Of a stretch of DNA of 64,000 nucleotides, positions 24,623 to 45,253 are shown piece after piece; within the stretch, counting starts at the first letter, position 1, and every line of letters begins with the position of its first letter. A program made the position numbers and the translations under genes. Below the pieces are notes generated by a model, which was not told the origin of the DNA, searched no databases, and saw only the letters and a list, made by a program, of their open reading frames with translations. The stretch lies in assembly GCF_022846615.1 (NCBI RefSeq), contig NZ_AP025637.1, forward strand, positions 4,427,001-4,491,000, given 5' to 3'. The stretch comes from Roseomonas fluvialis. Its GTDB lineage: Bacteria; Pseudomonadota; Alphaproteobacteria; Acetobacterales; Acetobacteraceae.

Positions 24623-24630
24623 GGCGTGTG

Positions 24631-25599
24631 ATGCCACTCGTCCCCGCCTCCTTCTTCGGCATGGTGTTGGGCCTGGTCGGCCTCGGCACCGGCTGGCGCA
24701 TCGCCACCCGATTGTGGGGCCTGCCTGCTATCGTCGGCGAGGCCATCCTGCTGCTCGCCGCGGCCGTCTGGGCCATCCTGCTGATCCTTTATGTTGGCAA
24801 ATGGCTCTTGGCCCGCGATGCGGCGTTGGCCGAGGCCGCGCACCCCGTTCAGTGCTGCTTCGTCGGCCTGGTCGGCGTCGCGACGATGCTGGTCGCGGGC
24901 GCCGCAATACCGCTGAGCCGCGAACTCGCCTTGATCCTCTATGCCCTCGGAGCGGTGTTCACCCTGGCCTTCGGCGTGTGGCGGTCGGGGCAGCTCTGGC
25001 ATGGCGGGCGGGACGGCACCACGAGCACGCCGGTGCTCTACCTGCCGCTGGTCGCAGGCAGCTTCGTCTCAGCCACGGTGGCAAGCACGCTCGGCTACGC
25101 CGACTGGGGCGCGCTCGCCTTTGGCATGGGCTTCTTCGCCTGGCTGGCGATCGAATCTGTGCTGCTGCACAGGCTCTACACCGGCCCTGCCTTGCCGCCC
25201 GCGCTGCGCCCGACGCTCGGCATCCAACTCGCTCCGCCGGTTGTCGGAGCGATCAGCTACCTGTCCGTCCATCCCGGTCCGCCCGATGTCATGGCGCAGG
25301 CCATGCTCGGCTACGGGCTGATGCAGGCGTTGCTGCTGCTGCGCCTGCTGCCGTGGATCCTGGAGCAGCCCTTCGCTCCGTCCTACTGGGCGTTCAGCTT
25401 CGGCGTGACGGCGCTCGCCAACGCCAGCCTCATCATGACGGAACGCGGTGCCGTTGGTGCCGTCCCCACCCTGGCGCCTTGGCTGTTTGGCGCTTCGGTG
25501 CTGGTCATCCTCATGCTCGTGGTCGGCACGCTCGCGCGGATCCTCGGCAGCGGCCTGGGCCTCGAGCGGCGGCCCTTGCGTCTGGCCATCCGCTCCTGA
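24631..25599 (+). CDS. TehA/SLAC1-family membrane channel
   Basis: A 322-residue inner-membrane protein with about ten hydrophobic helices and little loop sequence, as expected for the tellurite-resistance/dicarboxylate (TDT, SLAC1-like) family. Matching segments are PASFFGMVLGLVGLGTGWR at the start, LPLVAGSFVSATVASTLG, and PPVVGAISYLS in the middle. Homologues are anion channels; tellurite resistance is a historic label only. It is co-directional with, and 8 nt after, the cysteine hydrolase. A hairpin shared with the convergent MFS gene follows. Confidence 0.87.
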   Translation: MPLVPASFFGMVLGLVGLGTGWRIATRLWGLPAIVGEAILLLAAAVWAILLILYVGKWLLARDAALAEAAHPVQCCFVGLVGVATMLVAGAAIPLSRELALILYALGAVFTLAFGVWRSGQLWHGGRDGTTSTPVLYLPLVAGSFVSATVASTLGYADWGALAFGMGFFAWLAIESVLLHRLYTGPALPPALRPTLGIQLAPPVVGAISYLSVHPGPPDVMAQAMLGYGLMQALLLLRLLPWILEQPFAPSYWAFSFGVTALANASLIMTERGAVGAVPTLAPWLFGASVLVILMLVVGTLARILGSGLGLERRPLRLAIRS

Positions 25600-26869: not shown

Positions 26870-27073
26870 CCGCTGCTTCGTGGAAAGCGGCGAGGATGCC
26901 GACGACACCGCAGCGAGGATTGGACGTTCGGTCCCCGCCCTCTGCGCGAAGCCACGATCGATCGCCTCACCGCGCGACGCACCGCGGCGCACCAAATCGA
27001 CAAGCCGCGATAACCGCGAACGATGATGCTGTCGCACAAGGTGGTGGCCCGTGCGCCGCCAGATGGAGGCCGC

Positions 27074-27526
27074 ATGATCGAGCTGACAATCAATGGAACC
27101 GTTCGTCGTGTCGACGTCGAGCCGGACACTCCGCTGTTGTGGGTGATCCGCGATACGCTCGGCATGACCGGGACGAAGTATGGCTGCGGCATCGCGCAAT
27201 GCGGTGCCTGCACCGTCCTGGTGGATGGGCAGGCGACGCGATCCTGCGTGACCCAGGCGGACAGCGTGGTCGGCGCCCGCATCACGACCATCGAGGCGAT
27301 CGAGCAGGATCCCGTCGGCCGCCGCGTCGTAGAGGCCTGGGTTGGGCAGCAGGTGCCGCAATGCGGCTACTGCCAGTCGGGCCAGGTGATGGCGGCGACG
27401 GCGCTGCTGCAACAGACCCCGAAGCCGACCGAGGAGGACATCGGGGCCGCGATGACCAACCTCTGCCGCTGCGGAACCTACAACAACATCGCGGACGCCA
27501 TTCGCAGCGCCGCCGCGCAAGGCTGA
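27074..27526 (+). CDS. 2Fe-2S subunit of a molybdenum hydroxylase (IorA-like)
   Basis: A 150-residue protein binding two 2Fe-2S clusters. Cys38, Cys43, Cys46 and Cys58 form the plant-ferredoxin-type cluster (YGCGIAQCGACTVLVDG), and Cys97, Cys100, Cys131 and Cys133 form the second (PQCGYCQSGQ, NLCRCGTYNNI). It matches small subunits of the isoquinoline 1-oxidoreductase/nicotinate dehydrogenase/aldehyde dehydrogenase group. It passes electrons from the Mo centre to a cytochrome c. GGAGG just before the ATG fixes this start over an earlier in-frame one at 27023. It has no signal peptide, so it is probably exported folded together with the Tat-bearing large subunit. Confidence 0.93.
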   Translation: MIELTINGTVRRVDVEPDTPLLWVIRDTLGMTGTKYGCGIAQCGACTVLVDGQATRSCVTQADSVVGARITTIEAIEQDPVGRRVVEAWVGQQVPQCGYCQSGQVMAATALLQQTPKPTEEDIGAAMTNLCRCGTYNNIADAIRSAAAQG

Positions 27527-27537
27527 GGAGCATCACC

Positions 27538-29718
27538 ATGGATGGCATGCCGCTCAATCCGTCGCTGCCACGGCGCGCGCTGCTCGGGGCGCTGGTGCTT
27601 GGCGTCGCGCTCCCCGGCGGTGGCCGGTTGGCCCGCGCCCAGGCGGCGGCCGTGCAACCTGGCACGCGCGTCACAGCCTTCCTCGAGATCCACCCGGATG
27701 GCGGCTTCAAGTTGCTCAGCCCCTATGTCGAAGGCGGCCAGGGCATCAACACCGCGATGGCACAGATCCTCGGCGAGGAGCTCGATCTCGACCCCGCGCG
27801 CTTCACGGTCGAATGCGCGCCGCCCGGCCCGGACTACGTGCTGGTCGATGGCCTCCGCGTGACCGGCGGATCTTCCTCCACGCGCTACTCCTATGATGCG
27901 ATGCGCCGGCTCGGCGCGACCGCGCGTGACATGCTCATCCGTGCGGCCGCGACGCGGCTGCGAGTTCCGGCGGCGCAGCTCCGCACTGAGAACGGCATGG
28001 TCATCCATGCCGCGACCAACAGTCTGCTGAGCTATGGCGAGCTCGCCGCCGCCGCCATGGCGCTGCCGCAGTCACCGGATGTGCCGCTGCGCGACCCGGC
28101 AAGCTTCCGCTACATCGGCAAGCCGTATCCGCGGCTCGACGTCCGCGACAAATCGACCGGGCGCGCGCAGTACAGCATCGATGCCGCGGTGCCGGGCATG
28201 AAGCTGGCAGCGGTGCAGCATGCCCCACGCATCGGCACAGTCGCCGGCGCATTGCGCAACGAGGCTGCGGTGAAGTCCATGCCCGGGGTGCATTCCGTGC
28301 ACCGGCTGGGCGACGCCGTCGCCGTCGTTGCCGACAGTTGGTGGCGGGCCCGCAAGGCGGTCGAGGCGCTGGAGGTCGATTGGGTTGCTGGCCAGGGCGG
28401 CATTCCGGCGGATTTCTCCTCGGCCGGCATGCTCGCCGCCCTGAAGGCGGATACCGGCGCCGGCTTGGCCGCCGAGACGATCGGCGATGCCGATGCCGCG
28501 CTGCGCGGCGCCGCGCGGGTCATCGAGGCCGAGTACGACGCCCCCTACCTGTCACACGCGCAGCTCGAACCCCCTTCGGCGCTGGCGCGGTTCGACGCCG
28601 ATGGGCGCCTGCACCTGTGGCTGCCCAACCAGATGCCGGACCTGTTCCAGGGTGTGGCCGCGCAGGTCGCCGGGATCGATCCGTCCAAGGTGGTCCTGCA
28701 TTCCCCGATGCTGGGTGGCTTCTTCGGCCGCCACTTCCTCTACAACAATGCAAGCCCCTTCCCGCAGGCGATCCTCCTCGCCAAGGCTACGGGCCTGCCG
28801 ATCAAACTGATCTGGAGCCGAGAGGAGGAATTCGCCCGCGACGCCGTGCGCCCCATCGGCTACGCGCGCTTCCGTGCCGGTCTTGACGCGCAGGGCAAGC
28901 CGGTCGCCTTTCACGCGCGGGTCATCGGCGAAGGGCCGCTCGGCCGCTACTTCGGCCCGGCCATGGGGAATCCGCCGGTTGATTCCTCGGCCGTGGAAGG
29001 CATCGTCGGGCGCCACTACGCCATCCCCAACCGCCGTACCGATTACGTGAAGCATCCGCAGCCGGCGGTGATCGCCTTCTGGCGGTCGGTCGGCCACTCG
29101 ATGAATGACTTCTTCCACGAATGCTTCTTCGACGAGATGGCGGCTGCCGGGGGACAGGACCCCTATGCGCTGCGGCTTGAGCTTTTGAAGGACAAGCCGC
29201 GCCAGCGCGCCCTTCTCGAAGCGGTGGCGGATCTGTCGGGCGGCTGGCGCCGTGGACCCTTCGCGGTCGATGGCGCGCAGCGTGCGCGCGGCGTCGCCAT
29301 GGCATCGCCCTTCAACAGCGAGGTCGCGACGATCGCCGAGGTCTCGGTCAAGGATGGCGAGGTCGTGGTGCATGACATCTGGGTCGCGATCGACCCGGGC
29401 TCCATCGTCAACCCCGCCATCATCGAGCGGCAGGTGCAGTCGGCCGTGACGCTCGGCCTCTCGTCCGCCCTGCTCGAACAGGTGGTCTACGAGAATGGCG
29501 CGCCCCAGGCCCGCAACTTCGATGCCTATCCCATCATGGCACGCGACCGCATGCCGCGCGTGCATGTGCGCATTGTTGCGAGCGGTGCGCCGATGGGCGG
29601 CATCGGGGAGCCCGGCCTGCCCGGCGTGCCGCCCGCCGTCGTCAATGCGGTCGCCGCCCTGACCGGCCAGCGCGTGCGCTCGCTTCCCCTCTCGAAGACC
29701 CGCCTCGGAGCCAGCTGA
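27538..29718 (+). CDS. molybdopterin-binding large subunit of a molybdenum hydroxylase (IorB-like)
   Basis: A 726-residue catalytic subunit of the xanthine-oxidase family, one-chain IorB type. A twin-arginine signal (LPRRALLGALVLGVALPGGG) at about 10-30 implies export to the periplasm. Cofactor motifs include GGQGINTAMAQI near the start, SPMLGGFFGRHFLYN for the molybdopterin loop, and GIGEPGLPGVPPAVVNA, whose Glu is the likely catalytic base. The substrate (N-heterocycle, aldehyde or other) cannot be told. It follows the 2Fe-2S gene by 11 nt, and its stop overlaps the cytochrome gene start (TGATG). Its Mo need links it to modABC about 10 kb away. Confidence 0.92.
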   Translation: MDGMPLNPSLPRRALLGALVLGVALPGGGRLARAQAAAVQPGTRVTAFLEIHPDGGFKLLSPYVEGGQGINTAMAQILGEELDLDPARFTVECAPPGPDYVLVDGLRVTGGSSSTRYSYDAMRRLGATARDMLIRAAATRLRVPAAQLRTENGMVIHAATNSLLSYGELAAAAMALPQSPDVPLRDPASFRYIGKPYPRLDVRDKSTGRAQYSIDAAVPGMKLAAVQHAPRIGTVAGALRNEAAVKSMPGVHSVHRLGDAVAVVADSWWRARKAVEALEVDWVAGQGGIPADFSSAGMLAALKADTGAGLAAETIGDADAALRGAARVIEAEYDAPYLSHAQLEPPSALARFDADGRLHLWLPNQMPDLFQGVAAQVAGIDPSKVVLHSPMLGGFFGRHFLYNNASPFPQAILLAKATGLPIKLIWSREEEFARDAVRPIGYARFRAGLDAQGKPVAFHARVIGEGPLGRYFGPAMGNPPVDSSAVEGIVGRHYAIPNRRTDYVKHPQPAVIAFWRSVGHSMNDFFHECFFDEMAAAGGQDPYALRLELLKDKPRQRALLEAVADLSGGWRRGPFAVDGAQRARGVAMASPFNSEVATIAEVSVKDGEVVVHDIWVAIDPGSIVNPAIIERQVQSAVTLGLSSALLEQVVYENGAPQARNFDAYPIMARDRMPRVHVRIVASGAPMGGIGEPGLPGVPPAVVNAVAALTGQRVRSLPLSKTRLGAS

Positions 29719-30089
29719 TGCGACCCTTTCCCATCCTTGCCACGCTTACGACACTGCTCGCCGCGACACCCGCCTCGGCAGCGGACGCCGATCACGGCAG
29801 GACGCTGTTCCAGCGCCAATGCGCGTCCTGCCACCAGGTCGCGCAGCCACGCAACGGCGTCGGCCCTTATCTGCAAGGCGTGGTCGGGCGTCCCGCAGCA
29901 AGCGTCGGCGGTGCGAACTACTCGCCCGCGATGCGGCAATCCGGCATCACCTGGACGGCCGAGGATCTGAATGAGTTCCTCGCCAACCCCGCGGTGAAGG
30001 TGCGCGGGTCGCGGATGACGAACCGCGTGCCGAACGCGACCGACCGCGACGACCTGATCGCGTTCCTCGCGACGACGCAGGCGCCCTGA
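29718..30089 (+). CDS. class I cytochrome c, electron acceptor of the Mo hydroxylase
   Basis: A 123-residue periplasmic cytochrome. The signal peptide is residues 1-21 (ending TPASAAD), the haem site is CASCH at 35-39, and the axial Met is probably in the SRMTNRVPN loop. GPYLQGVVGRPA is typical of class I c-type cytochromes of cytochrome c2/c550 type. It starts on the last base of the large-subunit gene and so is translationally coupled. It should pass electrons from the hydroxylase to the respiratory chain. Confidence 0.92.
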   Translation: MRPFPILATLTTLLAATPASAADADHGRTLFQRQCASCHQVAQPRNGVGPYLQGVVGRPAASVGGANYSPAMRQSGITWTAEDLNEFLANPAVKVRGSRMTNRVPNATDRDDLIAFLATTQAP

Positions 30090-30132: not shown

Positions 30133-30954
30133 ATGTCACATGTTTCGAATGCACCGCGTACGGCCCTGATCACCGGGGCGTCCGGTGGCATCGGATCCGT
30201 CTATGCGGATCGCCTGGCCCGCCGCGGATACGACCTTGTCCTGGTGGCGCGGCAGGAAGCGCCGCTGCGTGCAGTGGCCGATCGCGTCGCGGCCGCCTCG
30301 GGCCGGAACGTGACCATCGTCGTCGCGGATCTCGGCGATGCCTCTGACCTTCACCGCGTCGAGGCGCTGCTGCGGGACGCGCCGCGCATCGGCATGCTGG
30401 TGAACAATGCGGGCTTTGGCGGCGTCACCTCGCTGGCCAAGAGCGACGTCGACCGGATGGAAGCGATGATCGCGGTGAACGTCACGGCACTGACGCGCCT
30501 GACCTACGCCGCGGCGCCGGCATTCCTGGCCCGCGGTGGCGGCACCATCGTCAACATCGCCTCCATCGCGGCCCTCGCGCCGGAACTCCTGAACGGGGTC
30601 TATGGGGCCACCAAGGCCTATGTCCTTGCCTTCACACAATCCCTGCAGCACGAGCTCGGCAACCAGGGGCTGCGCATCCAGGCCGTGCTGCCGGGCGCCA
30701 CCGCCACCGCGTTCTGGGGCACCGCGGGGCTGGGCGATTCCAGTGATCTTCCGTCGGCCATCGTGATGACCGCCGAGAACCTCGTCGATGCCGCACTGGC
30801 GGGCCTCGACTCAGGCGAAGTCGTCACCATCCCGCCCCTGCAGGATGGGACGGAATGGACGCGCTACGAAGCGCAGCGGGTCGCGATGGCGCCGCATCTG
30901 GGTCACGCGCAGCCGGCCCCGCGATACAGCCTGCCCCGCCCGGAAGCGGCGTGA
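30133..30954 (+). CDS. short-chain dehydrogenase/reductase
   Basis: A 273-residue cytoplasmic oxidoreductase with a Rossmann fold. The cofactor motif is TGASGGIG at 14-21, followed by NNAGFGG, the catalytic Ser in NIASIAALAP and YGATK as the YxxxK motif. The C-terminal part (LPGATATAFWGTAGLG) resembles the DltE/YqjQ-like subgroup. An Arg after the first beta strand (LVARQ) favours NADP(H), an inference. It lies 43 nt after the cytochrome gene and may act on the product of the Mo hydroxylase. Confidence 0.88.
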   Translation: MSHVSNAPRTALITGASGGIGSVYADRLARRGYDLVLVARQEAPLRAVADRVAAASGRNVTIVVADLGDASDLHRVEALLRDAPRIGMLVNNAGFGGVTSLAKSDVDRMEAMIAVNVTALTRLTYAAAPAFLARGGGTIVNIASIAALAPELLNGVYGATKAYVLAFTQSLQHELGNQGLRIQAVLPGATATAFWGTAGLGDSSDLPSAIVMTAENLVDAALAGLDSGEVVTIPPLQDGTEWTRYEAQRVAMAPHLGHAQPAPRYSLPRPEAA

Positions 30955-31041
30955 CTGCGCCGTGCCAGGCCTTGCTGCGGCGTTGGCTTGGCCGCCGACC
31001 CTCGACTGTGCTGATCTCCCGCCGTGCCGCGCCATATTGCC

Positions 31042-33834
31042 ATGCCTGACGGGGCTGGTCGCTCCGGGAGCCGAGCCGCGTTGCTGTTTGGCGACTTCGC
31101 CTTCTATCCCCAGTCCGGAACGCTGACCCGCCACGGTGTCCCGGTGACGCTGGGTGGTCCGGCACGCGCCCTGCTGGCGGCCCTGATGGAAGACCCCGGC
31201 GCGGTGGTCAGCGCGCAATACCTTGCGGAGCGCGCCTGGCCCGGCCAGGTCCGCGGGGAAGCCAATCTGCGCGTCCAGATCTCCGCCCTGAGGCGAGTCC
31301 TGGGTACTGCGCCGGACATGCGCGGGGCTATCCTCAACATTCCCGGCCGCGGCTACCAGTTCGTGCTGCCGGTCCGGCCGGCGGGAACGGTGCAGGCGAT
31401 GTCCGGTGCACCGGATGAGTCGTCCGGGCGGCTGCCGCCGATGCTGGGCGGGCTGATCGGACGGGACGAGGAACTCGCCGGCCTGCATGCGCGGCTCGCA
31501 CGTCATCGCCTGGTCACCCTGGTCGGCGTGGGTGGCATCGGCAAGACAAGCCTCGCCGTCGCCGCGGCCCATGGCTGGGCGGCGGACACCGGCGAGCGTC
31601 CGCGCTTCCTCGACGTCACCACCATTGCGGACGGATCCCTGCTGCCTGCCGCGGTGGCTGGCGCGGTGGGGCTCGGCACCCCAGGCTTCGACCCGGTGGA
31701 GGAGATGGCCGCCGCCCTGGGTCAGGCCGGGACGCTCCTGGTGCTCGACAATGTCGAACACCTGCTGCCCGCGACGGCGCAGCTGACGCGCGCCTTGCTG
31801 CAGCGCCTGCCGCGCCTGCGCATCCTCGTCACCAGTCGCGAGCCGCTGCAGTCGGAGGGCGAGTGCGTGCAGCTCCTGCGCCCCCTGCGGCTGCCGCCGG
31901 TCGACGCGCCGGGTGGCCTGGCGCAGGTCCTTCGCTACCCGGCCGCGCAACTGCTGGTCGAGCGGGCGGCGGCGCGCCTTGGCGACTTCCAGCCGCGCGA
32001 ATCCGATGCGGCGGACCTTGCGCGGCTCTGCCATCGGCTCGACGGTCTGCCGCTGGCGATCACGCTCGCGGCCTCGCGGATCGACATGTTCGGCATTGCG
32101 GGACTTGCGGCCGATTCGAGCAGCCTGCTCTCTGTCCAGAACCTCGCGAGGCGTGGCCGCAGCGACCGCCACCGCACGATGCGCAGTACACTGGACTGGA
32201 GCTACCGGGCGCTGCTGCCGACGGATCAGCGACGGTTGCGGCGGCTGTCCGTGCTGCACGGCCCCTTTACCGCCGCCACCGCGGCGATCATGGCGGCAGA
32301 GCAGGACCAGGAGCCGCTCCTGCGCGGCCTCGAACGACTGGAGCGCAAGTCGCTCATCAGCCGGGCCGAGGATGCGGGCGGTGTCCCGCGCTGGCGTCTG
32401 CTGCACATCACGCGTGCCTTCGCGGCCGAGCTGCTGGCGGAAGCCGGGGAAGCGCCAAAGCTGCGCGAGCGCCATGCGCGCCACATGCTGCGGGAGGTGC
32501 GCGCGGCGCTGGCGGAGCGGCAGCGCACCGATCCTGCAGCGTGGCGCGCGGCGCACCAGGCGCTGCCGGAGGACCTGCGCGTGGCCGTCGACTGGGCGCT
32601 GGGGCCGGATGGCGATCGCCGGCTTGCGCTGGGCCTGATCGCCGAGTCCGCGCCGGCCTGGCTTGCGCTCGGGCATGCAGCCGAGTTCCGTCGGCGCGTG
32701 GAGCGGGCCATCGATGCGGAAGGGGTCGGCGGCACGCCCGAGGTCGCGCGGCTGCATCTGAGCGCGGCCATTGCCATCCTGCACAATACGGGCGAGGTCC
32801 TGGTTATCGGCGAGCATCTGCGCCGTGCGGTGGAAGTATCCGATGCGCATGGCGACGACGCGACCGCCTTGAGTGCGACGGTGCTGCTCTGGATGGCAAC
32901 GGTCATGGAAGCCGATGGCGCCGCCGCCGCACGCCTGGCCGAAGACGTCGAACGCCGCATTGCCCCTGGCACGCCCGACGACGATCCGGTCGTGGTGGTG
33001 CATGGCCGGATGGTTGGCCTGACCCGCTTCATGGCCGGCGACATCCAGGAATCACGCCGCCGCCTTGGGGTGACCCTGCGTCATGCGCCCGACGTGATGC
33101 TGCCGGGCACGCTGATCGATCACACGGTCGTCACGCGCGCCCTTGAGGCACGCCTGCTGTGGGTCGAGGGCTTTCCCGAGAAGGCGTGGGAGGCCGCGCA
33201 GGTTGCCCATCATTCCGCCAGGGCCGTGGACCATGCGCTGTCGTTGGCCTTCGCGCTCTGCTTCGCCCTGTGCCCGATCGCACTATGGAATGGCGAGGCG
33301 ACGGCGATGACGCATGTCCGGGACCTCATCGCGATCGGGCAGTCGCATCGCATGCCATACTGGCGCGACTGGGGTCGCTGCTTCGAAGGCGCTGTACCCC
33401 TGTCTGGAGGCCTGCCGCCGGGACTCCCGAAGGACATCGACCCGACGCCGTTCCACCTGGAGATGCTGGGCACGCTCCATCCCACCCTCGCCGAGCCCGC
33501 CACCATTGCGCGCGTGGATGCGGGCCAGGCGGGTTGGTGCGCGCCGGAATTGCTGCGCGCCAAGGCAGAGCGCCTGCTGATTCGCGCTGCAAGCGAACCC
33601 GGCGTGCTGCGCCCTGCCGAACGGATCCTGCGCCAGGCGCTCGACCTGGCGGAGCACCGTGGCATGCGGGGCTGGGCGTTGCGCAGCGCCACCAGCCTTG
33701 CCCGCGTCCTTTGTCTCAAGGGCGAGCACGCCGCGGCGCGGCGGCTGCTCGAGCCGGTGATGGCGCGCGTCACCGAAGGTTTCGCGATGCCCGACTTCCG
33801 CATCGCGCAAGCCCTGCTCGATGGATGCGCGTAG
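31042..33834 (+). CDS. winged-helix / NB-ARC ATPase / TPR regulator, copy 1
   Basis: A 930-residue STAND-type regulator. Residues about 13-108 are an OmpR/CadC-type winged helix (LLFGDFAFYPQSGTLTRHGV, NLRVQISALRRVLG, NIPGRGYQFVLPV). The NB-ARC P-loop is GVGGIGKTS at 162-170 with Walker B LLVLDNVEH at 232-240 and the sensor SREPLQSEGE. Residues about 480-930 are helical TPR-like repeats that would sense a ligand. The ATG at 31042 was chosen; a GTG at 31024 is also possible. The signal and targets are unknown. It shares architecture and many motifs with the gene at 34853, and the two face each other around a Bug-family gene. Confidence 0.9.
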   Translation: MPDGAGRSGSRAALLFGDFAFYPQSGTLTRHGVPVTLGGPARALLAALMEDPGAVVSAQYLAERAWPGQVRGEANLRVQISALRRVLGTAPDMRGAILNIPGRGYQFVLPVRPAGTVQAMSGAPDESSGRLPPMLGGLIGRDEELAGLHARLARHRLVTLVGVGGIGKTSLAVAAAHGWAADTGERPRFLDVTTIADGSLLPAAVAGAVGLGTPGFDPVEEMAAALGQAGTLLVLDNVEHLLPATAQLTRALLQRLPRLRILVTSREPLQSEGECVQLLRPLRLPPVDAPGGLAQVLRYPAAQLLVERAAARLGDFQPRESDAADLARLCHRLDGLPLAITLAASRIDMFGIAGLAADSSSLLSVQNLARRGRSDRHRTMRSTLDWSYRALLPTDQRRLRRLSVLHGPFTAATAAIMAAEQDQEPLLRGLERLERKSLISRAEDAGGVPRWRLLHITRAFAAELLAEAGEAPKLRERHARHMLREVRAALAERQRTDPAAWRAAHQALPEDLRVAVDWALGPDGDRRLALGLIAESAPAWLALGHAAEFRRRVERAIDAEGVGGTPEVARLHLSAAIAILHNTGEVLVIGEHLRRAVEVSDAHGDDATALSATVLLWMATVMEADGAAAARLAEDVERRIAPGTPDDDPVVVVHGRMVGLTRFMAGDIQESRRRLGVTLRHAPDVMLPGTLIDHTVVTRALEARLLWVEGFPEKAWEAAQVAHHSARAVDHALSLAFALCFALCPIALWNGEATAMTHVRDLIAIGQSHRMPYWRDWGRCFEGAVPLSGGLPPGLPKDIDPTPFHLEMLGTLHPTLAEPATIARVDAGQAGWCAPELLRAKAERLLIRAASEPGVLRPAERILRQALDLAEHRGMRGWALRSATSLARVLCLKGEHAAARRLLEPVMARVTEGFAMPDFRIAQALLDGCA

Positions 33835-33850
33835 AGGTGCACTGGCGCGC

Positions 33851-34819
33851 CTATCCGTTGCCGAGGCCAAGCCTGTGGATCACCGGAATCCAGGCCTCGG
33901 CATCGGCGTGGCGTGTCCGGTCGACCGCCGTGGGCGGCCCGCCCAGCGGTGTCAGCCGCACCTGTGCCAACCAGTCGCGCAACGCGGGCCTAGCCAGGGC
34001 CTGGCGCAGCGCATCATTGAGAAGCGTTACCTTCTCAGTCGGCGTGCCCGATGACGCGAACAGGGCGTACCACCCCGGAAAAGCCGGCGCATCGTAGCCG
34101 GCGTCGCGAAACGAGGGCACCCCGGGAAGATCCGGATCGTGTTCGGCGCCGAGCAAGCCGAGCGGCACCAGTTGCCGGTCGCGCAGGTACGGCAGCACGG
34201 CGCCGACCGGCGCCGCGAGCAGGTCGATCGTTCCTGCCACAAGGTCCGGGAAGGGCAGCCGGGTCGCGTAGGGCACATGGGTCAGCGAGATGCCCATCAC
34301 ATCGGCCAGCATGGCGGTCGCCACATGGCTGGCATGGCCATGGCCGCCGCTGGCGTAGGTCAGGCGCCCGGGCTCGGCGCGCGCGGCATCGACAAGACGG
34401 GCAAGCGAATCGATGGGACTGCGTCCACTGGACACCAGGACGAGCGGCGTGGTGGCGATCAGCCCGATGCTCGCGAAGTCACGCGTCGGATCGTAGGTCA
34501 GCGACCGATTCAGCGCGGGTCCGTAGGTCATCAGCGAGCCTCCGGCGATCAGCATCGCGCTGCCGTCTCGGGGAAGGCGCTTCAGCGCCTCGATGGCGAC
34601 GACGCCATTGGCGCCGGGGCGCGCATCGGTGATGGCCGTGCGGCCGAGGATCTCCCCGAGTTGCAGCGCGAGCGCCCGGCCAAGGACATCGATCTGGGTG
34701 CCGGGCGCCGCCGGGACGATGATGCGGATAGGCGGATGGGCGGCCCGGGCGATACCTGGCGCGGCGCAGCACAGGACGGTGGCGAGCAGGTCGCGCCGGC
34801 GATGTGCGATCGAGGGCAT
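33851..34819 (-). CDS. Bug-family tripartite tricarboxylate-type binding protein (orphan)
   Basis: A 322-residue periplasmic solute-binding protein. Residues 1-27 are a signal peptide (HRRRDLLATVLCCAAPGIARA; the Arg run could allow Tat export). IRIIVPAAPGTQIDVLGRAL and GANGVVAIEALKRLPRDG are the hallmark Bug regions that grip a carboxylate ligand. No TctA or TctB membrane partner is in the window, which is common for this family. It lies 33 nt downstream of the second NB-ARC regulator on the same strand, so it may feed a ligand signal to that system rather than to a transporter; this is inference. Confidence 0.9.
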   Translation of the reverse strand: MPSIAHRRRDLLATVLCCAAPGIARAAHPPIRIIVPAAPGTQIDVLGRALALQLGEILGRTAITDARPGANGVVAIEALKRLPRDGSAMLIAGGSLMTYGPALNRSLTYDPTRDFASIGLIATTPLVLVSSGRSPIDSLARLVDAARAEPGRLTYASGGHGHASHVATAMLADVMGISLTHVPYATRLPFPDLVAGTIDLLAAPVGAVLPYLRDRQLVPLGLLGAEHDPDLPGVPSFRDAGYDAPAFPGWYALFASSGTPTEKVTLLNDALRQALARPALRDWLAQVRLTPLGGPPTAVDRTRHADAEAWIPVIHRLGLGNG

Positions 34820-34852
34820 GACGGGGCTCCAGGATGCCTTGGTGACGCGGGG

Positions 34853-37564
34853 CTATGGGCGGTGCAGGGCGTCGATGAGATCTGGGGTGTCGAAGCCTTC
34901 CGTGAAGCACGGCAGGACGGCGTCCAGCGCGCGGGCCGCATCGGCACGTTCCCCGGCATCCCGCGCCAGGCGCCGGCGCGTGAGCGCGATCCGAAGCCGC
35001 CACGCCAAGGCGCCCTGGTCGCGTGCGAGGGCATCCGCGCGATCAAGCAGGCCCGGCGCGCGATCGGACGGCCCGCGCAGGGCCGCGAGGCGGAGCATCT
35101 CGGGCGTCGCCCAGATCGGCGCCGGGAGCAGGATCTCGTCATCTGGCGGGAGCCTTAGCCCGAGCCAGGCGAGCGCCTCGCGGTGCGCCGCGCCGCCCTT
35201 CATCGCATCGTCAAGATCGATGTGCCCGCGCCGCCCCTCGAATGCGCTCGCCTCCGCCAGGATCAGCCCATGCCCCTCCCAGCGCGGCAGCGCGTACAGA
35301 CGTGCCGTGGCGAGCAACCGCGCGATGCCGTCCTTCAGCGTTGCGGCATCGCCCGTCATCTGCGCCACGAAGCAGCGCCCGATGACGAGCGAGAAGCAGA
35401 TGGAAAGCGCATGGCCGCCGGCCAGGGCCTCCTCCAGGCTTTGCTCGGCAGCGGCGCGCGCCTGATCCGCCAGGCCTTGGAGCCATAGGGTCCGTGCCAG
35501 CAATGCGCGCGTCGCGACGCGGGGCTCGAACTGAAACTGGCCGACCACTCTCTCCTGGGGTTGCGCCGGTCGTGCGAGCACGCGATCCATGTAGACGCGT
35601 GCCTCGGCCAGTCGTCCCAGATAGGTGAGCGACATCGCGGTGCATCGATCGGCCACATGCAGCGGGTCGTCCTCGGCCGGCGTGCAGGCGCGGTAGGCCG
35701 CGGCGAAGGATAGCCCTTCCGCGTACTGGCCTTGGCCGAAGTGATACAGCCAGATGCCCCAGAGGCTGCGTCGCCGCGCCGCGAGATCGCCCAACTGCCC
35801 GGCGAGTTCGAGCGCGCGTTCATGGGTTGCAAGGATCGCCGTCCCCGGCCCCTCCGCGTGAAAGAGGGCCATGCCGAGCGTGCCGAGCAGCTGCATCTCG
35901 GCAGCCGCATCGGGCGTGGCGGCGAGCGCGACAAGCGCGCGTTCGGCATGGCGCCGGAATTCGGCGACCATCGATGTCTGCATGAAGAACTGCCCGGCGG
36001 CGGCCGTCAGGCGCACGCCCAGAGCCGGATCGCCGCCCGGCGAGAAGGCCCAGTCGAGCGCGGCGCGCAGGTCATCGAGGAGGCTGTCGCGCCATGCCTG
36101 CGCGTACTCCGCAGGCCCCGCCGTCCTGAGGCGATCGAGGCGCTGGTGGACACGCTGGAGGTGGCAGCGCCTGACGTCATCCTCCCACACCGTCTCGCGC
36201 AGCCGTCGCGACGCATAATCGCGCATGGTGTCGAGCAGCCGGTAGGTGGGTGCCGCGCCATCCAGCGTCACCGCGACCAACGACCTGTCGACAAGCTCGG
36301 CGAGCGACTCGCGCGCCAGAGGGGGAGGGAGCGGCGCGCCGTCCTGCGCCGACGCATCGACATCCACCCCGTCGCCGGCGCCGGCGACGGCGACGATGCT
36401 TTCGAGCGACATGTGGGCGCGGAACACCCCAAGGCGAAGCAAGAGCGAGCGCTCTGCCGGGCGCAGGAGCTCGAAGCTCCAATCGATCGCGGCTTGGAGC
36501 GAGCGGTGCCGTGGCTGTCGCTGGTCCGGCAAGGGTCGCGGCCGGGCCAAGTGTTCGCCGAGATTCACGAGAACCTCGGCCGCGGAATGCGGGCCGAGAT
36601 GCGCCGCGACGAGCTCGATGGCAAGCGGCAACCCGTCCAACGCGCTGCACAGGCGGGCCAGGTCCCCGATTTCCTCCGGCGCCGGCTCGAAGGGCGGATC
36701 GTTGGCGGCGGCCCGGTCCAGCAGGAGACGCAGGGCCGGCGTGTCACGGGCCGTGGCGTCGGGCAGGCCGGCGACCGGCAGTTCGAGCGGTCGGAGCCGG
36801 TGGAGGGCTTCCCCGGCGATCCGCAGAGGCTCGCGGCTGGTGGCCAGGATGCGCACCTCGCGAGCCTCGGTGAGGAGTTGCTCGGCGAGATCCGCGACGC
36901 TTCCCGAAAGATGCTCGCAATTGTCCAGTACGAGGAGACGGGGGCGTTCGCGCAGCGCATCGACCAGCGCTTGAACGGGCGCTGCCTGCGTCATGGAGAC
37001 GCCGAGCGCCCGCGCGACCGCATCGGCCACGAGGGCGGGATCGATCAGCGGGGCAAGATCGACGAAGGCTGGACCTGCAGATGCCGCTCCGATCCACCTG
37101 GCAGCTGCCGCGACGGCAAGGCTCGTCTTGCCGATGCCGCCGGCGCCGACCAGTGTCACCAGGCGGTGCTCCGCGAGCATCCTGTCGAGCCGCACGAGAT
37201 CGCTCTCACGACCGATGAGCGGCACCGCCGGCGCGGGCAGCGCGTCATCGTCCTGCGACGCCGGCACGACCGGGGTGGCAAGCGAATAGCCCTCGCCGGG
37301 ACGATTGACGATGGCATGGCCCTGCCCGAGCGCGCGGCGCAGGGCAGAGACATGCACCCTGATGTTCGCCTCCTCGACATGGAGGTTCGGCCAGACCGTG
37401 GCGAGGATGTCGGCGTTGCTCACCGTCCGGGGCGCGCTGCGGGCCAGCAGATGGAGGATGGACATGGCGCGTGCGCCGAGCGGGACGGCAACACCCTGGC
37501 GCGTGAGGCTGCCGCGGCCGGGGCGCAGCACGAAGGGGCCGAACTGGAGGGGGGTATCAGGCAC
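34853..37564 (-). CDS. winged-helix / NB-ARC ATPase / TPR regulator, copy 2
   Basis: A 903-residue paralogue of the gene at 31042. Residues about 7-98 are the winged helix (FGPFVLRPGRGSLTRQGV, NIRVHVSALRRALGQG, NRPGEGYSLATPV). The P-loop GAGGIGKTS is at 140-148, Walker B LLVLDNCEH is at 210-218, followed by SREPLRIAGE and LDGLPLAIELVAAHLG. The C-terminal ~420 residues are TPR-like. It has no receiver domain, so input probably comes through the TPR part. It leads the Bug-protein gene in one operon. Long open frames on the opposite strand here are GC artefacts. Confidence 0.9.
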   Translation of the reverse strand: MPDTPLQFGPFVLRPGRGSLTRQGVAVPLGARAMSILHLLARSAPRTVSNADILATVWPNLHVEEANIRVHVSALRRALGQGHAIVNRPGEGYSLATPVVPASQDDDALPAPAVPLIGRESDLVRLDRMLAEHRLVTLVGAGGIGKTSLAVAAAARWIGAASAGPAFVDLAPLIDPALVADAVARALGVSMTQAAPVQALVDALRERPRLLVLDNCEHLSGSVADLAEQLLTEAREVRILATSREPLRIAGEALHRLRPLELPVAGLPDATARDTPALRLLLDRAAANDPPFEPAPEEIGDLARLCSALDGLPLAIELVAAHLGPHSAAEVLVNLGEHLARPRPLPDQRQPRHRSLQAAIDWSFELLRPAERSLLLRLGVFRAHMSLESIVAVAGAGDGVDVDASAQDGAPLPPPLARESLAELVDRSLVAVTLDGAAPTYRLLDTMRDYASRRLRETVWEDDVRRCHLQRVHQRLDRLRTAGPAEYAQAWRDSLLDDLRAALDWAFSPGGDPALGVRLTAAAGQFFMQTSMVAEFRRHAERALVALAATPDAAAEMQLLGTLGMALFHAEGPGTAILATHERALELAGQLGDLAARRRSLWGIWLYHFGQGQYAEGLSFAAAYRACTPAEDDPLHVADRCTAMSLTYLGRLAEARVYMDRVLARPAQPQERVVGQFQFEPRVATRALLARTLWLQGLADQARAAAEQSLEEALAGGHALSICFSLVIGRCFVAQMTGDAATLKDGIARLLATARLYALPRWEGHGLILAEASAFEGRRGHIDLDDAMKGGAAHREALAWLGLRLPPDDEILLPAPIWATPEMLRLAALRGPSDRAPGLLDRADALARDQGALAWRLRIALTRRRLARDAGERADAARALDAVLPCFTEGFDTPDLIDALHRP

Positions 37565-37753: not shown

Positions 37754-38374
37754 TCACGCAGCCATGTCGGCCGCGCTTGCCGTCCGGCGCCACGAGCGCG
37801 GCGTCGTACCGATGCGCTGCCGGAAAACACGCGAAAGGTGCGCCTGGTCGGCGAGGCCGCAGGCGAGCGCGATCTGCGCCAGGGGCTCGTTGGTGGTGAC
37901 CATCAGGTCCTGCGCGCGGGCGATGCGACGGCCCACGACGTAGGAATGCGGGGGCTGGCCGAAGGAGGCGGTGAAGGCCCGCGTGAAGGCGCTGCGGCTG
38001 AGCCGCGCCGTCGCCGCCATGTCCGAAACGGCAAGCGGACCATGCAGGTGCTCCTCGACCATCTGCGCCACCTTGCGCCTCTGCCAGGGCGCTAGGCCGG
38101 CGAGCTGCTCCTGCCGGGCTGGCAGGGCGGCGCTCAGAATTCCCTCGAGCGCCACGATCGCCGGGAGGACCGCGTCCATCAAGGCCGGCGCGTGCACGAG
38201 CCGGCGTGCCTGGACCTGCTCCAGGACCTTCTGCAGCCGACCGAGCTCCACTGCCGCGTTGAACCCTCGCGGGACGTACGCCGCCGCAGCGACGGGGGGT
38301 ATGGCGGCGTGCATCTCGATCTCCTGGTCCGGGCTCGCGAGCCGGGGCTTGTGGCTTCGGAGACCATTCATCAT
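37754..38374 (-). CDS. AraC-family regulator, short form
   Basis: A 206-residue protein. The C-terminal ~100 residues hold two helix-turn-helix units of AraC type (LAVSDMAATARLSRSAFTRA, FGQPPHSYVVGRRIARAQDL, then LAQIALACGLADQAHLSRVF). The N-terminal ~95 residues lack a recognisable cupin or ligand domain. The start is at the first of two adjacent ATGs (38374, 38371). It is divergent from the alpha/beta hydrolase at 38573 across a gap of about 200 nt and is a candidate for its control. Confidence 0.85.
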   Translation of the reverse strand: MMNGLRSHKPRLASPDQEIEMHAAIPPVAAAAYVPRGFNAAVELGRLQKVLEQVQARRLVHAPALMDAVLPAIVALEGILSAALPARQEQLAGLAPWQRRKVAQMVEEHLHGPLAVSDMAATARLSRSAFTRAFTASFGQPPHSYVVGRRIARAQDLMVTTNEPLAQIALACGLADQAHLSRVFRQRIGTTPRSWRRTASAADMAA

Positions 38375-38572
38375 CGATGCAGGGGCGGTCCGTGAGTAAA
38401 GCGATGCAAAATCTCGGGCGGCCTTGAGGGCGCGCGTCATCGCCAAATCGCGCTCCGTGGGTCCAAGGCGCGATGTGTGATCTCGCCTAGATCTTGGGCA
38501 GGCGACATGGCAGCGGAACCGGATGGCGTTCCAATGCACCGGGCAGGCGCCAGGCATCCTTTGAAGGTGGAC

Positions 38573-39445
38573 ATGGCAGGATTGCCGGAGGCGGTTGCGT
38601 ATCGCGCGTTGCGAACGACAGTGCGGTTTATCGAGACGGGTGGCGCGAGACTGGCGTGGCGCAGCTTCGGAGAGGGCCAGCCGATCGTCCTGTGCACGCG
38701 TTTCCGAGGGACGATGGCGAGCTGGGATCCCGCATTCCTCGACGTGCTGGCGCGGCAGGGCTGCCGCGTCATCCTCTTTGATCCCGCCGGTCTCGGATAT
38801 TCCGAGGGCCGGCGCCGCTACAATCCGATCGAGATGGTCGATGATGTGCGCAATCTGCTGGATGGCCTTGGATTGGATCGCGTGGCGCTGCTCGGCTGGT
38901 CGCTCGGCGGCATGGTCGCGCAGGCCGCGCTGACGACGCTCAGCCCGCGATTGTCGCACCTCGCGCTGATCGGGACGGCACCGCCCGGACCGTGCAGGTC
39001 CGCCGCGCAGCAGCTCTTTTTCGACCTCGCGGCCGCACCTGAAGGGGATGAGCGGGCGCAGCTGGCGATCGCCTTCGACCCGTCCTCCGAGCGGAGCCGG
39101 CGCGCGGCACGACGTTCGATGCAACGCCTGGCGCGCTGGGACACGACCGGCATGGTGCCGGTCCCGCCAGCATGGGCCGCCGCGCAGCTCGGCGATGAGC
39201 CGCGCAATCCCATCTTCCCGGCACCTGAGGTGCGCGACGCCATGCTGCGATGCCGGCAGCCGGTTCTTTGCCTGTGCGGCGCAAGGGATATCGGCTTTCC
39301 GGCCGAGAACTGGCAGGCGATAAGTGCCTGCAATGCCGGTATCGACGTTCGCTGCCTTCCGGATGCCGGGAATGCACCGCATCACCAGTATCCCCGATGG
39401 TCAGCGCACATGATCGGACGTCTCCTGCTGCGTGATCCGGCCTGA
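38573..39445 (+). CDS. alpha/beta hydrolase, RFRGT subtype (copy 1)
   Basis: A 290-residue cytoplasmic hydrolase. The nucleophile elbow GWSLGG gives Ser110, with FDPAGLGYSEG before it. The usual HG oxyanion motif after the first strand is replaced by RFRGTMASWDP, as in the gene at 39465. The C-terminal acid and His are probably in CGARDIGFPAENW and NAPHHQYP. The start is uncertain: 38573 gives a family-like N-terminus, but an in-frame ATG at 38507 is possible and neither ribosome site is strong. The substrate is unknown. It is convergent with its paralogue, with only 19 nt between the stops. Confidence 0.82.
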   Translation: MAGLPEAVAYRALRTTVRFIETGGARLAWRSFGEGQPIVLCTRFRGTMASWDPAFLDVLARQGCRVILFDPAGLGYSEGRRRYNPIEMVDDVRNLLDGLGLDRVALLGWSLGGMVAQAALTTLSPRLSHLALIGTAPPGPCRSAAQQLFFDLAAAPEGDERAQLAIAFDPSSERSRRAARRSMQRLARWDTTGMVPVPPAWAAAQLGDEPRNPIFPAPEVRDAMLRCRQPVLCLCGARDIGFPAENWQAISACNAGIDVRCLPDAGNAPHHQYPRWSAHMIGRLLLRDPA

Positions 39446-40362: not shown

Positions 40363-41316
40363 TCATGCCGCATTCGAGGCTTCCTCGCCTTGCGGGCTGC
40401 GCTTCAGGCTCGCGGGCGACCGGCCGAAGGTGCGCAGGAAGGCGCGACGCATCCGATCCCGGTCCGCGAAGCCGGCCTCTCGCGCCACAATGTCGAGCGG
40501 GTGGCGGCCATCCTCCATCATCGCCCGCGCCGCCTCGAGGCGCAGCAACTCCACGGCCTTGGCCGGGGAGCGTCCGGTCTCGTCGCGAAAGACGCGGCTG
40601 AACTGCCGGGGCGACAGGCTGGCGGCGTCCGCAAGCTCCTCGACCGTGAGCGGATTCCGCAGGTTCTCACGCGCATAGGTCAGTGCCCGCATCACCCGGT
40701 CCGATCGCGGTTCGAGATCGAGCAGGGCCGAATACTGCGACTGGCCGCCGGGACGGCGATGATAGACGACGAGCCGACGCGCCACGGTGCGCGCCAGGGC
40801 TGCGCCGTGATCCTCCTCGATCAAGGCGAGGGAGAGGTCGATGGCGGCCGACATACCCGCCGAGGTCCAGATGTTCCCTTCCTTGATGAAGATGCGGTCG
40901 TCATCGACATGAATGCCGGGATGGAGCTGCTGCAGATGGCGTGCATGGGCCCAATGCGTGGTTGCCGCGCGCCCCTCGAGCACGCCGGATTGCGCCAACA
41001 CGAAGGCGCCCGTGCAGAGTGCCGCGACGCGTCGCGCCTGTGCGGCAGCGCTCTGGATATAGGCGATGACCGCGGGCGCGGCCGGCTGCGGCGGCGCGAT
41101 CAGCCCGGCCACCAGAAGCGTGTCGGGCATCGCCCCCAGTGGCGCCGTTTCCAAGGTCATGCCGAGCGATGTTCGAACCGGGCCGCCGCGTTCCGAGTGA
41201 ACGGATACGGCATATCCCTTCGGGCCGAGCTCGCGATTCGCGAACTCGAACGCCGTCAGCGCGGCGAGCACCATCGGCTGGAAGCCGTCATCGATGATCA
41301 GCGCGACCCGTCGCAT
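40363..41316 (-). CDS. GlxA-type regulator (DJ-1/PfpI domain plus AraC HTH)
   Basis: A 317-residue transcription factor. Residues 1-190 form a DJ-1/PfpI-like domain (RRVALIIDDGFQPMVLAALT, VAALCTGAFVLAQSG with the elbow Cys, IWTSAGMSAAIDLSLALIE), used in this family for ligand sensing, not catalysis. The C-terminal ~110 residues are AraC-type DNA binding (LTVEELADAASLSPRQFSRV, DIVAREAGFADRDRMRRAF). AAAGGA 9 nt before the ATG selects this start over an upstream in-frame one at 41385. It is likely to control the downstream hydrolase. Confidence 0.9.
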   Translation of the reverse strand: MRRVALIIDDGFQPMVLAALTAFEFANRELGPKGYAVSVHSERGGPVRTSLGMTLETAPLGAMPDTLLVAGLIAPPQPAAPAVIAYIQSAAAQARRVAALCTGAFVLAQSGVLEGRAATTHWAHARHLQQLHPGIHVDDDRIFIKEGNIWTSAGMSAAIDLSLALIEEDHGAALARTVARRLVVYHRRPGGQSQYSALLDLEPRSDRVMRALTYARENLRNPLTVEELADAASLSPRQFSRVFRDETGRSPAKAVELLRLEAARAMMEDGRHPLDIVAREAGFADRDRMRRAFLRTFGRSPASLKRSPQGEEASNAA

Positions 41317-41496
41317 CGCGTTTGTCCTTTCGTCAGCATCGTACGCGCGTTTCGGCGGGCGGCCCTTCGCCGGCCTGCTGGCCACTCCACTTTAGCATCG
41401 ATGTCGCCGGTCGGTGCCCACACGCTTGGTTTGCCGCGTGCCCGCCAGCGCACGAGACCATGCGCATCGACGACAGAGTCGCGCGGCACTCATGAA

Positions 41497-43040: not shown

Positions 43041-43691
43041 CTACGGCAACCCGAGCGCCTCGGCCTGCCGGACGAGCTCGGCGAGCGACCGGGCCTTCAT
43101 CTTTCGCATCGCGTTGCCGCGATGGATCTTCACCGTGATCTCGCTGAGGCCGATGCGGCCGGCGACCTGCTTGTTCATCAGCCCGGCGACGACATGCCCC
43201 ATCACTTCCCGCTCCCGCTGGGACAGCGTCTCGTAGCGTTTGCGCAGCTCATCGGTCGCCGCAGCCGCCTTGCGGCGTTCCCGGTCGCTGGCCACCGCCG
43301 CCGCCACGGCGTCCAGCATCTCCTGGTCCCGAAAGGGCTTCGGCAGGAAATCCAGCGCTCCCGCCTTCATCGCCCGCACGGTCATCGGGACGTCGGCGTA
43401 GCCGGTCATGAACACGATCGGCATCGCGACGCCGCTCGCCACCAGCTGCCGCTGCAGGTCGAGGCCGCTGATACCCGGCAGGCGCACGTCGAGGATGATG
43501 CAGCCGGGCATGTCCGGCACGGGCATGGCCAGAAGCTCGGCGGGGGAAGCATGCTGCCGCGTGACAAAGCCCACGGAGCGCAGCAGGCTGTCGAGAGAGG
43601 CGCGTACGGACGGATCGTCATCGACGATGATCACCATGCCGTGCGCGGCCGTCGCATCTTCGCCGCTGCGGGCCCGACCTTGCGTCATCAT
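43041..43691 (-). CDS. FixJ-family response regulator
   Basis: A 216-residue DNA-binding response regulator. The receiver domain occupies residues 18-135 with phosphoacceptor Asp68 (CIILDVRLPG) and KPF as the conserved Lys region. A LuxR/FixJ-type helix-turn-helix is at about 150-210 (LSQREREVMGHVVAGLMNKQ, IGLSEITVKIHRGNAMRKMK). Its ATG overlaps the histidine kinase stop (ATGA), so the two are made together and are almost certainly a cognate pair. Confidence 0.93.
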   Translation of the reverse strand: MMTQGRARSGEDATAAHGMVIIVDDDPSVRASLDSLLRSVGFVTRQHASPAELLAMPVPDMPGCIILDVRLPGISGLDLQRQLVASGVAMPIVFMTGYADVPMTVRAMKAGALDFLPKPFRDQEMLDAVAAAVASDRERRKAAAATDELRKRYETLSQREREVMGHVVAGLMNKQVAGRIGLSEITVKIHRGNAMRKMKARSLAELVRQAEALGLP

Positions 43692-45253
43692 GTCTCGGCA
43701 TCCTCGAGGGCTGCGACGGGCAGGATCAGGTGGAAGGCGGCTCCGGCGCCCGGCACGCTGTCGACCGAGAGCCGCCCGCCATGCGCCTCGGCGGTGGTAC
43801 GGCAGATGGCGAGGCCCATCCCCATGCCGGCCTGCCGCGTGGTGAAGAACGGCTCGAAAATCCGTGACTGCTCGCCAGGGCCGATGCCCGGCCCGTTATC
43901 CTCGACGCAGACCGCGATCCGGCCACTGTCCTCGAGCCCCGCGGCCACGCGCAGCCGGCGTGGCGTGTCTGATGCGGCGAGAGCCTGGGCCGCATTGACC
44001 ATCAGGTTCACCAGGATCTGCTGGAGCTGGATCCGGTCGCCGCGCAGCATGGGAAGGTCCGGTGCGATCTCTACCTTCAGCTCGACCTGCGTTGCGAGCA
44101 GCTCTCGTTCGACCAGCAGGACGGCATCCTCGATGATTGTAGCGATGCTCAGCACCTCGTGCTGCGCCGGCATCTTCTTCACGAAGGACCGGATTCGCGT
44201 GACGATCTGGCCGGCGCGGTTGCCCTCGGCCACGATGCGCGTCAGCGCCTGCTCGACTTCCGCCAGATCCGGCGTCGCGCGCCGGAGCCAGCGCAGGCCG
44301 GCCTGCCCATCGGTGACGACGGCCATCAGCGGCTGGTTCACTTCATGCGCGATGGATGCGGAGAGCTCGCCGAGCGTCGCCGTGCGGGCGGCATGGGCCA
44401 GGTCGGCCTGCGCCGCCAGCAGTGCGTCCTGTGCCTGCCGCCGCTCTGTGATGTCGACGATGAAGACAAGCACGCTGCCATCGGGATCGTCCGGCGGCGG
44501 GAAGATGACCGTGTAGAGGAAAGGCGTGCGGCTGCCGTCGCTGCGCAGCAGCTCGGACTCGCCTTCGACGAACATTTCGCCCCGCACGAAAGCGTCCCGG
44601 GTATCCGCGAAGAACCTGTCGCTGACTGCGCGCAGGCCCTCCGCGTCCGCGCCGCGGCGCAGCATGGCAAGCATTGCAGGATTGGTGTCGATCGTCCGGA
44701 CCAAGCTGCGCAACTGCGCGACATCGCGCGCCCCACGATGTATCGATGACGGCAGCCCTTGGGCCGAGACGGCGCTGCGCAGGGCGCGCCAATCTTGCTC
44801 GATGATGCCGATCCGGCTCGCATCGAAGATTCGGCGGTAGCGGCTTTCACTCCGCACCAGGGCCGCAGTCGCCGCGCAACCCTGCAACGCCAGCACGCCC
44901 GTCATGACGATCGCCGCGATGCTGACAATGGCCCGCAGCGTCCATGCCCCGGCCTCCCGCGCGCCATGGGTGTCGAAATAGGCATACAGGGTAAGTGCGA
45001 GCGTGCCGGCGGCGGCCACGACGATGTCGCGGCGCCGCCCGGTGCGCGCCGCCAGAACGACCACCACGACATAAAGGACGGCCACCGCGCCCTCGAGCGG
45101 CGAGAAGGTGTCGAAGATGAAGATGGCGATCGCCAGCAGCAGCGCCGTCGCCAACAGCGCGTTGCGGCTGTGCGCATCCTCCGCCTGCCGCGCGATCGGC
45201 GGATCGGCCGGCGATCGGACGGGTTGCGGCTCAGGTGTTCGCGGTTCGCTCAA
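43688..45253 (-). CDS. membrane PAS sensor histidine kinase
   Basis: About 521 residues. The N-terminal ~110 residues contain three to four hydrophobic helices (LLATALLLAIAIFIFDTFSP, AVLYVVVVVLAA and two more). A PAS domain follows with a PAC-like end (FLYTVIFPPPDDPDGSVLVF). The HisKA phosphoacceptor is His303 in SIAHEVNQPL, and the HATPase motifs are NLMVNAAQAL, DNGPGIG and MGMGLAICRT. It resembles FixL-type kinases, but no haem-binding His can be confirmed. The start is uncertain: I use a TTG at 45253 because the frame upstream to an ATG at 45466 crosses the neighbouring gene's terminator and looks non-coding. Confidence 0.85.
   Translation of the reverse strand: MSEPRTPEPQPVRSPADPPIARQAEDAHSRNALLATALLLAIAIFIFDTFSPLEGAVAVLYVVVVVLAARTGRRRDIVVAAAGTLALTLYAYFDTHGAREAGAWTLRAIVSIAAIVMTGVLALQGCAATAALVRSESRYRRIFDASRIGIIEQDWRALRSAVSAQGLPSSIHRGARDVAQLRSLVRTIDTNPAMLAMLRRGADAEGLRAVSDRFFADTRDAFVRGEMFVEGESELLRSDGSRTPFLYTVIFPPPDDPDGSVLVFIVDITERRQAQDALLAAQADLAHAARTATLGELSASIAHEVNQPLMAVVTDGQAGLRWLRRATPDLAEVEQALTRIVAEGNRAGQIVTRIRSFVKKMPAQHEVLSIATIIEDAVLLVERELLATQVELKVEIAPDLPMLRGDRIQLQQILVNLMVNAAQALAASDTPRRLRVAAGLEDSGRIAVCVEDNGPGIGPGEQSRIFEPFFTTRQAGMGMGLAICRTTAEAHGGRLSVDSVPGAGAAFHLILPVAALEDAET

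Follow-up and report, generated by a model that had tools for sequence, protein, structure and literature searches.

Two paralogous transcription regulators converge, in the genome of Roseomonas fluvialis, on a gene for a periplasmic binding protein (Bug) that has no transporter partners, and the question this arrangement raises is whether the three genes form a unit or lie together by chance. The window (the whole stretch of 64,000 nts analysed, positions 4,427,001 to 4,491,000 of NZ_AP025637.1) contains the trio and its surroundings (Table 1). The trio is probably a sense-and-use module for some organic compound, so far undescribed, and not an accident of position; it is kept in at least four species of two genera, beside a periplasmic oxidising enzyme. 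A description of this gene combination was not found in the open-licence literature, to which searches were limited.

Table 1. Genes of the island, with window coordinates, strand and principal evidence
Feature	Coordinates	Strand	Evidence
R1, wHTH-STAND-TPR regulator	31024..33834	+	Pfam Trans_reg_C, AAA_16; ortholog clade of 5 species, support 1.0
R2, wHTH-STAND-TPR regulator	34853..37564	-	Pfam; ortholog clade 1.0, sister to R1 clade 0.98
Bug/TctC periplasmic solute-binding protein, twin-arginine signal, no TctAB partner	33851..34819	-	Pfam TctC 1.2e-42
AraC-family regulator, ~186 aa	37754..38314	-	HTH_18 6.3e-19 on 37757-38365; near the pair in G475 and three g280 species
IorA-like [2Fe-2S] subunit	27023..27526	+	Pfam Fer2_2 1.9e-24; 79-84% identity in four orthologous islands
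IorB-like molybdopterin subunit	27538..29718	+	Pfam MoCoBD_1/2; Tat-type signal PRRALLG; 74-76% identity in orthologous islands
Exported cytochrome c (CxxCH), putative electron acceptor	29718..30089	+	Cytochrom_C 4.4e-9; beside IorB in orthologous islands
Short-chain dehydrogenase (SDR)	30133..30954	+	adh_short 1.2e-44; 53% homolog in G475 island
Alpha/beta hydrolase, divergent from AraC	38477..39445	+	Abhydrolase_1 1.1e-18; 52% homolog, likewise divergent from AraC, in G475

The paired regulators

R1 is 936 aa long if read from the GTG at 31024, or 930 aa from the ATG at 31042, and R2 has 903 aa. Each has an OmpR-type winged helix (Pfam Trans_reg_C, 1.8e-11 in R1 and 1.2e-11 in R2), and the two proteins are 34% identical across their full length (1e-97). 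Pfam matches to AAA_16, AAA_22 and nSTAND1 are weak in both and lie under the gathering threshold; the P-loop GxGGIGKTS, the Walker B sequence LLVLDN.EHL, TSRE and GLPLAI are intact in both, and the STAND motifs are near-invariant among 34 homologs. Pfam gives no TPR match in either. The predicted structure of R2, folded from a two-sequence alignment, consists of the winged helix, a NOD that is modelled poorly and a C-terminus of helical repeats, with helical hairpins at 461–880 (pLDDT mainly 65–90, weaker at 770–820), and the solved STAND-TPR protein 6mfv ranks second among its Foldseek matches. R1 and R2 thus have both the motifs of STAND NTPases and a C-terminal superhelical sensor, their ADP/ATP-gated oligomerisation being a prediction only. 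The initial annotation had described two such paralogues flanking Bug, and the Pfam matches, the alignment, the motifs, the R2 model and Foldseek bear this out.

A bacterial transcriptional activation domain (BTAD) is absent from R1 and R2 in Pfam searches, the BTAD matches of the genome falling elsewhere. Neither protein has a convincing transmembrane segment (the hydropathy maxima, 1.9 and 1.6, are within the helical repeats), and they do not have the CadC/ToxR layout of winged helix, transmembrane helix and periplasmic domain. Comparison of the regions upstream of R1 and R2 for a common operator gave just one 9-mer match, not taken as meaningful, and alignments of upstream regions revealed no clear conserved block. 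The architecture is widespread, with at least a partial match in 329 plasmid records, mainly of rhizobia, Rhodococcus and Streptomyces, where such annotation as exists is mostly ‘winged helix-turn-helix protein’. On its own it is unremarkable, as is Bug on its own.

The orphan binding protein

In the 322-aa Bug, the TctC domain PF03401 covers the mature protein (1.2e-42, profile positions 3–273 of 274), and the terephthalate-binding protein, BugD and Bug27 are matched in the PDB over the mature chain. Its ATG is 33 nts from the stop codon of R2, which is upstream on the same strand (the initial annotation had put the two in one operon); the 3′ ends of R1 and Bug are 16 nts apart. The first ligand loop, PAAPGTQID, when set against the P-F-X-A-G-G-X-X-D motif, keeps the P, the first G and the D, and has T in place of the second G; the carboxylate-binding role of this motif has been described and hydroxyl replacements in it are on record (PMC5812351).

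The host genome (5.48 Mb, one contig) has at least 150 scored Bug genes in addition to that of the window (186 candidates at first look) and only four TctA genes, so orphan Bugs are the rule in it. The nearest TctA gene is ~757 kb from the window Bug, which is not encoded with TctA or TctB as in a TTT operon, and the absence of transporter partners noticed from the window alone thus holds genome-wide. (At first look, each same-genus genome has ~90–240 Bug candidates, so that the expansion is large and lineage-wide.) Rhodoplanes has 434 Bug copies, and orphan Bugs occur also in Bordetella (PMC5994714, PMC5812351). A scan of genome contigs with the window Bug as query gave distant Bugs only.

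The trio in related genomes

The survey for conserved linkage between regulator and Bug, which the initial annotation had set as the test of its proposal, was at first answered in the negative. In 34 same-genus genomes no orthologs of R1, R2 or Bug were found (best match ~38–42%), and in other families of the class no STAND gene was found with a Bug beside it. The conclusion that the linkage is not conserved was reversed by a family-wide search with R1, which revealed three trios. These are in genomes G752, G787 and G798, all of one other genus (g280), and have R1-Bug-R2 in the order and orientation of the window; the R2 and Bug frames overlap by ~4 nts in all three, and in two of them the 3′ ends of Bug and R1 also overlap. 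The gene calls in relatives come from a home-made caller based on codon usage. The island searches used R1 or R2, never Bug, as query, so linkage to Bug was not selected for. Clear R1 orthologs are present in 5 of 397 family genomes, and the module is rare. In G752 and G798 a third wHTH-STAND regulator, outside the R1 and R2 clades, is beside R1 (L209:4283-7147 and L210:11733-14600).

The Bugs of the g280 trios are 44% identical to the window Bug and group with it (support 0.973) in a clade that excludes the 65 other Bugs compared. Between G752 and G787, Bug differs by 0.15/0.10/0.36 at the three codon positions, a third-position excess like that in R1 and R2, and by this pattern the trio Bug appears to be under purifying selection within g280. 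Had an unselected segment been transferred once and recently, neither the 44% identity nor the third-position excess would be expected. The trio Bugs also have in common the unusual residues T41 and Q42 in the first ligand loop and T186 and R187 in the second (the latter assigned by position in the sequence, not by structure), which argues for a common, unusual ligand.

A fifth island, in genome G475, was found by a family-wide search with R2. Both regulators are present (R2 51% and R1 55% identical) and convergent, and there is no Bug: the stops of the two regulators are ~40 nts apart. The AraC gene and IorAB-cytochrome c are kept, and Bug has therefore been dispensable at least once, which counts against its place in the module.

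In trees, the orthologs of R1 (support 1.0) and of R2 (1.0) are sister clades (0.98; these FastTree supports, like the E-values of small windows, are approximate), so the pair stems from one duplication that is older than the divergence of the three genera, and the two copies have stayed together ever since. The first branch of the R1 tree is the window, which in the R2 tree groups with G475 (0.93), and in both G475 is nested between the window and g280; loss of Bug in G475 is thus simpler than two gains at one site. Insertion of Bug in the window lineage was considered and rejected on the grounds of that nesting and of the same-site Bug in g280.

Adjacency across the regulator family

For comparison with the background, 31 STAND loci of the family were set against 47 random regions (601 kb), largely from the same genomes, along which a pseudo-gene was slid. 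A Bug gene is within 400 nts of 6 of the 31 loci but of only 1.9% of control positions (binomial 2e-5); when orthologous islands are collapsed it is adjacent at 3 of 27 (p=0.014). An AraC gene like that of the window is within 1 kb of 14 of the 31 loci, compared to none in the 601 kb of control, and after collapsing the counts are 10/27 loci and 0/47 control regions (p=1e-5). The regulator family thus has its strongest partner in AraC and not in Bug. Linkage to Bug is firm mainly inside the R1-R2 lineage, with two further associations, one in G620 and one shared by G795 and G784.

The loci of G795 (L212) and G784 (L213) belong to a second STAND lineage in which they are mutual sisters. AraC is nearby, and so is a Bug, the Bugs of the two loci also being sisters; the Bug is 84 nts away and divergent in G795, and three genes downstream in G784, and both loci carry homologs of other window genes. 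Adjacent wHTH-STAND pairs are also found without Bug, in tandem in G074 (L144; sisters, 0.999) and convergent in G395 (L149; not sisters).

The accompanying enzymes

IorA, IorB, cytochrome c and AraC are near the pair in all five islands, and the latter, with the periplasmic IorA-IorB-cytochrome c, is a conserved part of the island that the initial annotation had overlooked. The position of IorAB relative to the pair varies between the window, G475 and g280. The start of the window AraC was placed by alignment with relatives. With a Tat-type signal on IorB and a Sec-type signal on the cytochrome c, oxidation should be periplasmic, as proposed for the related P. simiae deoxyribose dehydrogenase with its Tat signal (PMC6365646). 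The SDR gene, which ends 69 nts upstream of R1, and the alpha/beta-hydrolase gene have homologs in the G475 island. Alpha/beta-hydrolase genes are near STAND genes in 12/162 cases compared to at most 2/176 (p=0.004), a lead only.

Other genes of the surroundings include those for a FixJ-like response regulator and a histidine kinase (window 43041-45253, minus strand, ~5.5 kb from R2) and for a DJ-1/PfpI-AraC (GlxA-type) regulator beside two alpha/beta hydrolases (40363-41385, minus strand); GlxA-type regulators recur near other STAND genes. A gene for a SLAC1/TehA-type anion channel is near the window pair (24541-25599, plus strand) and also at a STAND-Bug locus of G032 (L133:11749-12738).

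Alternative readings

That the island as a whole serves catabolism or detoxification, as a conserved module that carries its own switches, has, in our judgement, an even chance of being right. The most serious competitor, tenable though clearly less probable, is that the functional unit comprises the regulator pair, AraC and IorAB-cytochrome c, with Bug co-inherited for generic solute binding and of no signal-related role. G475, which retains all but Bug, is as this reading predicts, the majority of STAND loci have no Bug, and the association with AraC is far stronger than that with Bug. However, Bug occupies the same site in two genera and overlaps R2 in three species, and both the purifying selection it appears to be under and its trio-specific ligand-loop residues speak for more than passive carriage.

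It is doubtful that the two STAND proteins form a switch, perhaps as a heteromer, whose input is set by a Bug translationally coupled to one of them. Of the undescribed sensory module that had been proposed, the module itself stands, as a conserved trio, but Bug as input to the pair is called into question by the Bug-less pair of G475. Slightly less likely again is that Bug is the true sensor, its ligand-loaded form acting on R1 and R2 through a membrane protein much as BctC acts with the kinase BctE in Bordetella. BctC with BctDE provides a precedent (PMC5812351) and Bug is coupled to R2, not to a transporter; against this, a conserved membrane protein that could be the partner was not recognised in any island, the regulators have no convincing membrane segment of their own, and G475 manages without Bug.

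Chance adjacency might be expected in a 5.48-Mb genome with over 150 Bug genes and with the trio in none of 34 same-genus genomes, but it was rejected by the sliding controls, with their rate of 1.9% within 400 nts, and is rendered most improbable by the three g280 species, in which the trio comes with an orthologous Bug. STAND ATPases are found in both defence and antibiotic-regulator settings, and a likeness to such systems had been suggested for R1 and R2; yet a role in anti-phage defence or antibiotic-cluster regulation is just as improbable, since BTAD, the defining domain of SARP regulators, is lacking, the effector is a DNA-binding domain and not a nuclease, the neighbours are catabolic or detoxifying enzymes, and the sole PADLOC match is a weak TRIP13 P-loop (E 0.009-0.03), with no other match to a known defence model of the Avs or any other kind.

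Proposed mode of action

For the sense-and-use module we infer a ligand, targets and a role for Bug along the following lines. IorAB-cytochrome c would oxidise an aldehyde, sugar or N-heteroaromatic compound to an acid in the periplasm, where Bug may capture the acid or a related carboxylate and hand it over to a shared TctAB permease, of which there are few, or to some other carrier. Once in the cytoplasm, the compound or its product would be bound by the TPR sensors of the two regulators; R1 and R2 would then exchange ADP for ATP and self-assemble, their winged helices binding the promoters of AraC, IorAB, SDR and hydrolase genes and so switching on the local operons. Bug would aid the switches by helping to bring in or concentrate the inducer, and not by touching them. 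As Bug is exported and neither regulator has a convincing membrane segment, direct contact would need a membrane partner, as the initial annotation had rightly cautioned, and none was found. That two regulators are kept could reflect two ligands, a heteromer, or an activator and a brake.

Gating by a change from ADP to ATP, and restraint by partner proteins, have precedents in MalT of E. coli (PMC10427625, PMC6468293), a STAND transcription activator which, like R1 and R2, has a helical-repeat sensor, in its case for a transported compound. MalT is gated by its inducer and restrained by its transporter (PMC10427625); its DNA-binding domain is C-terminal, unlike the N-terminal winged helix of R1 and R2. 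The large SARP AfsR of Streptomyces shares with them the order of N-terminal OmpR-type winged helix, NOD/STAND ATPase and TPR sensor, and is an ATP-gated activator, activated by ATP binding (PMC10936776). AfsR, however, has a BTAD after the winged helix, and is found in other hosts with other neighbours, whereas R1 and R2 are paired and occur with Bug.

The orphan Bug/TctC proteins of Bordetella and Rhodoplanes resemble the window Bug in having the TctC fold, in being exported and in belonging to an expanded family with few TctAB, and orphan Bugs have been reported near transcription factors (PMC5994714). The window Bug differs from them in its altered loop and in its conserved operon-like link to a STAND regulator. 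The Pseudomonas IorAB-cytochrome c clusters for deoxyribose or vanillin dehydrogenase have, like the island, iorA- and iorB-like genes, a cytochrome c gene and a Tat signal on IorB, and the part of that report available mentions neither a STAND pair nor Bug (PMC6365646).

Significance

In proteobacteria, no function is assigned to hundreds of orphan Bugs or to many wHTH-STAND-TPR regulators. A conserved module that ties Bug and STAND proteins to a periplasmic oxidoreductase and AraC offers a testable substrate and regulon for both families, and a setting in which the task of an orphan binding protein can be studied. If Bug does set the input of the STAND pair, the orphan Bug expansion would gain a regulatory role outside two-component systems.
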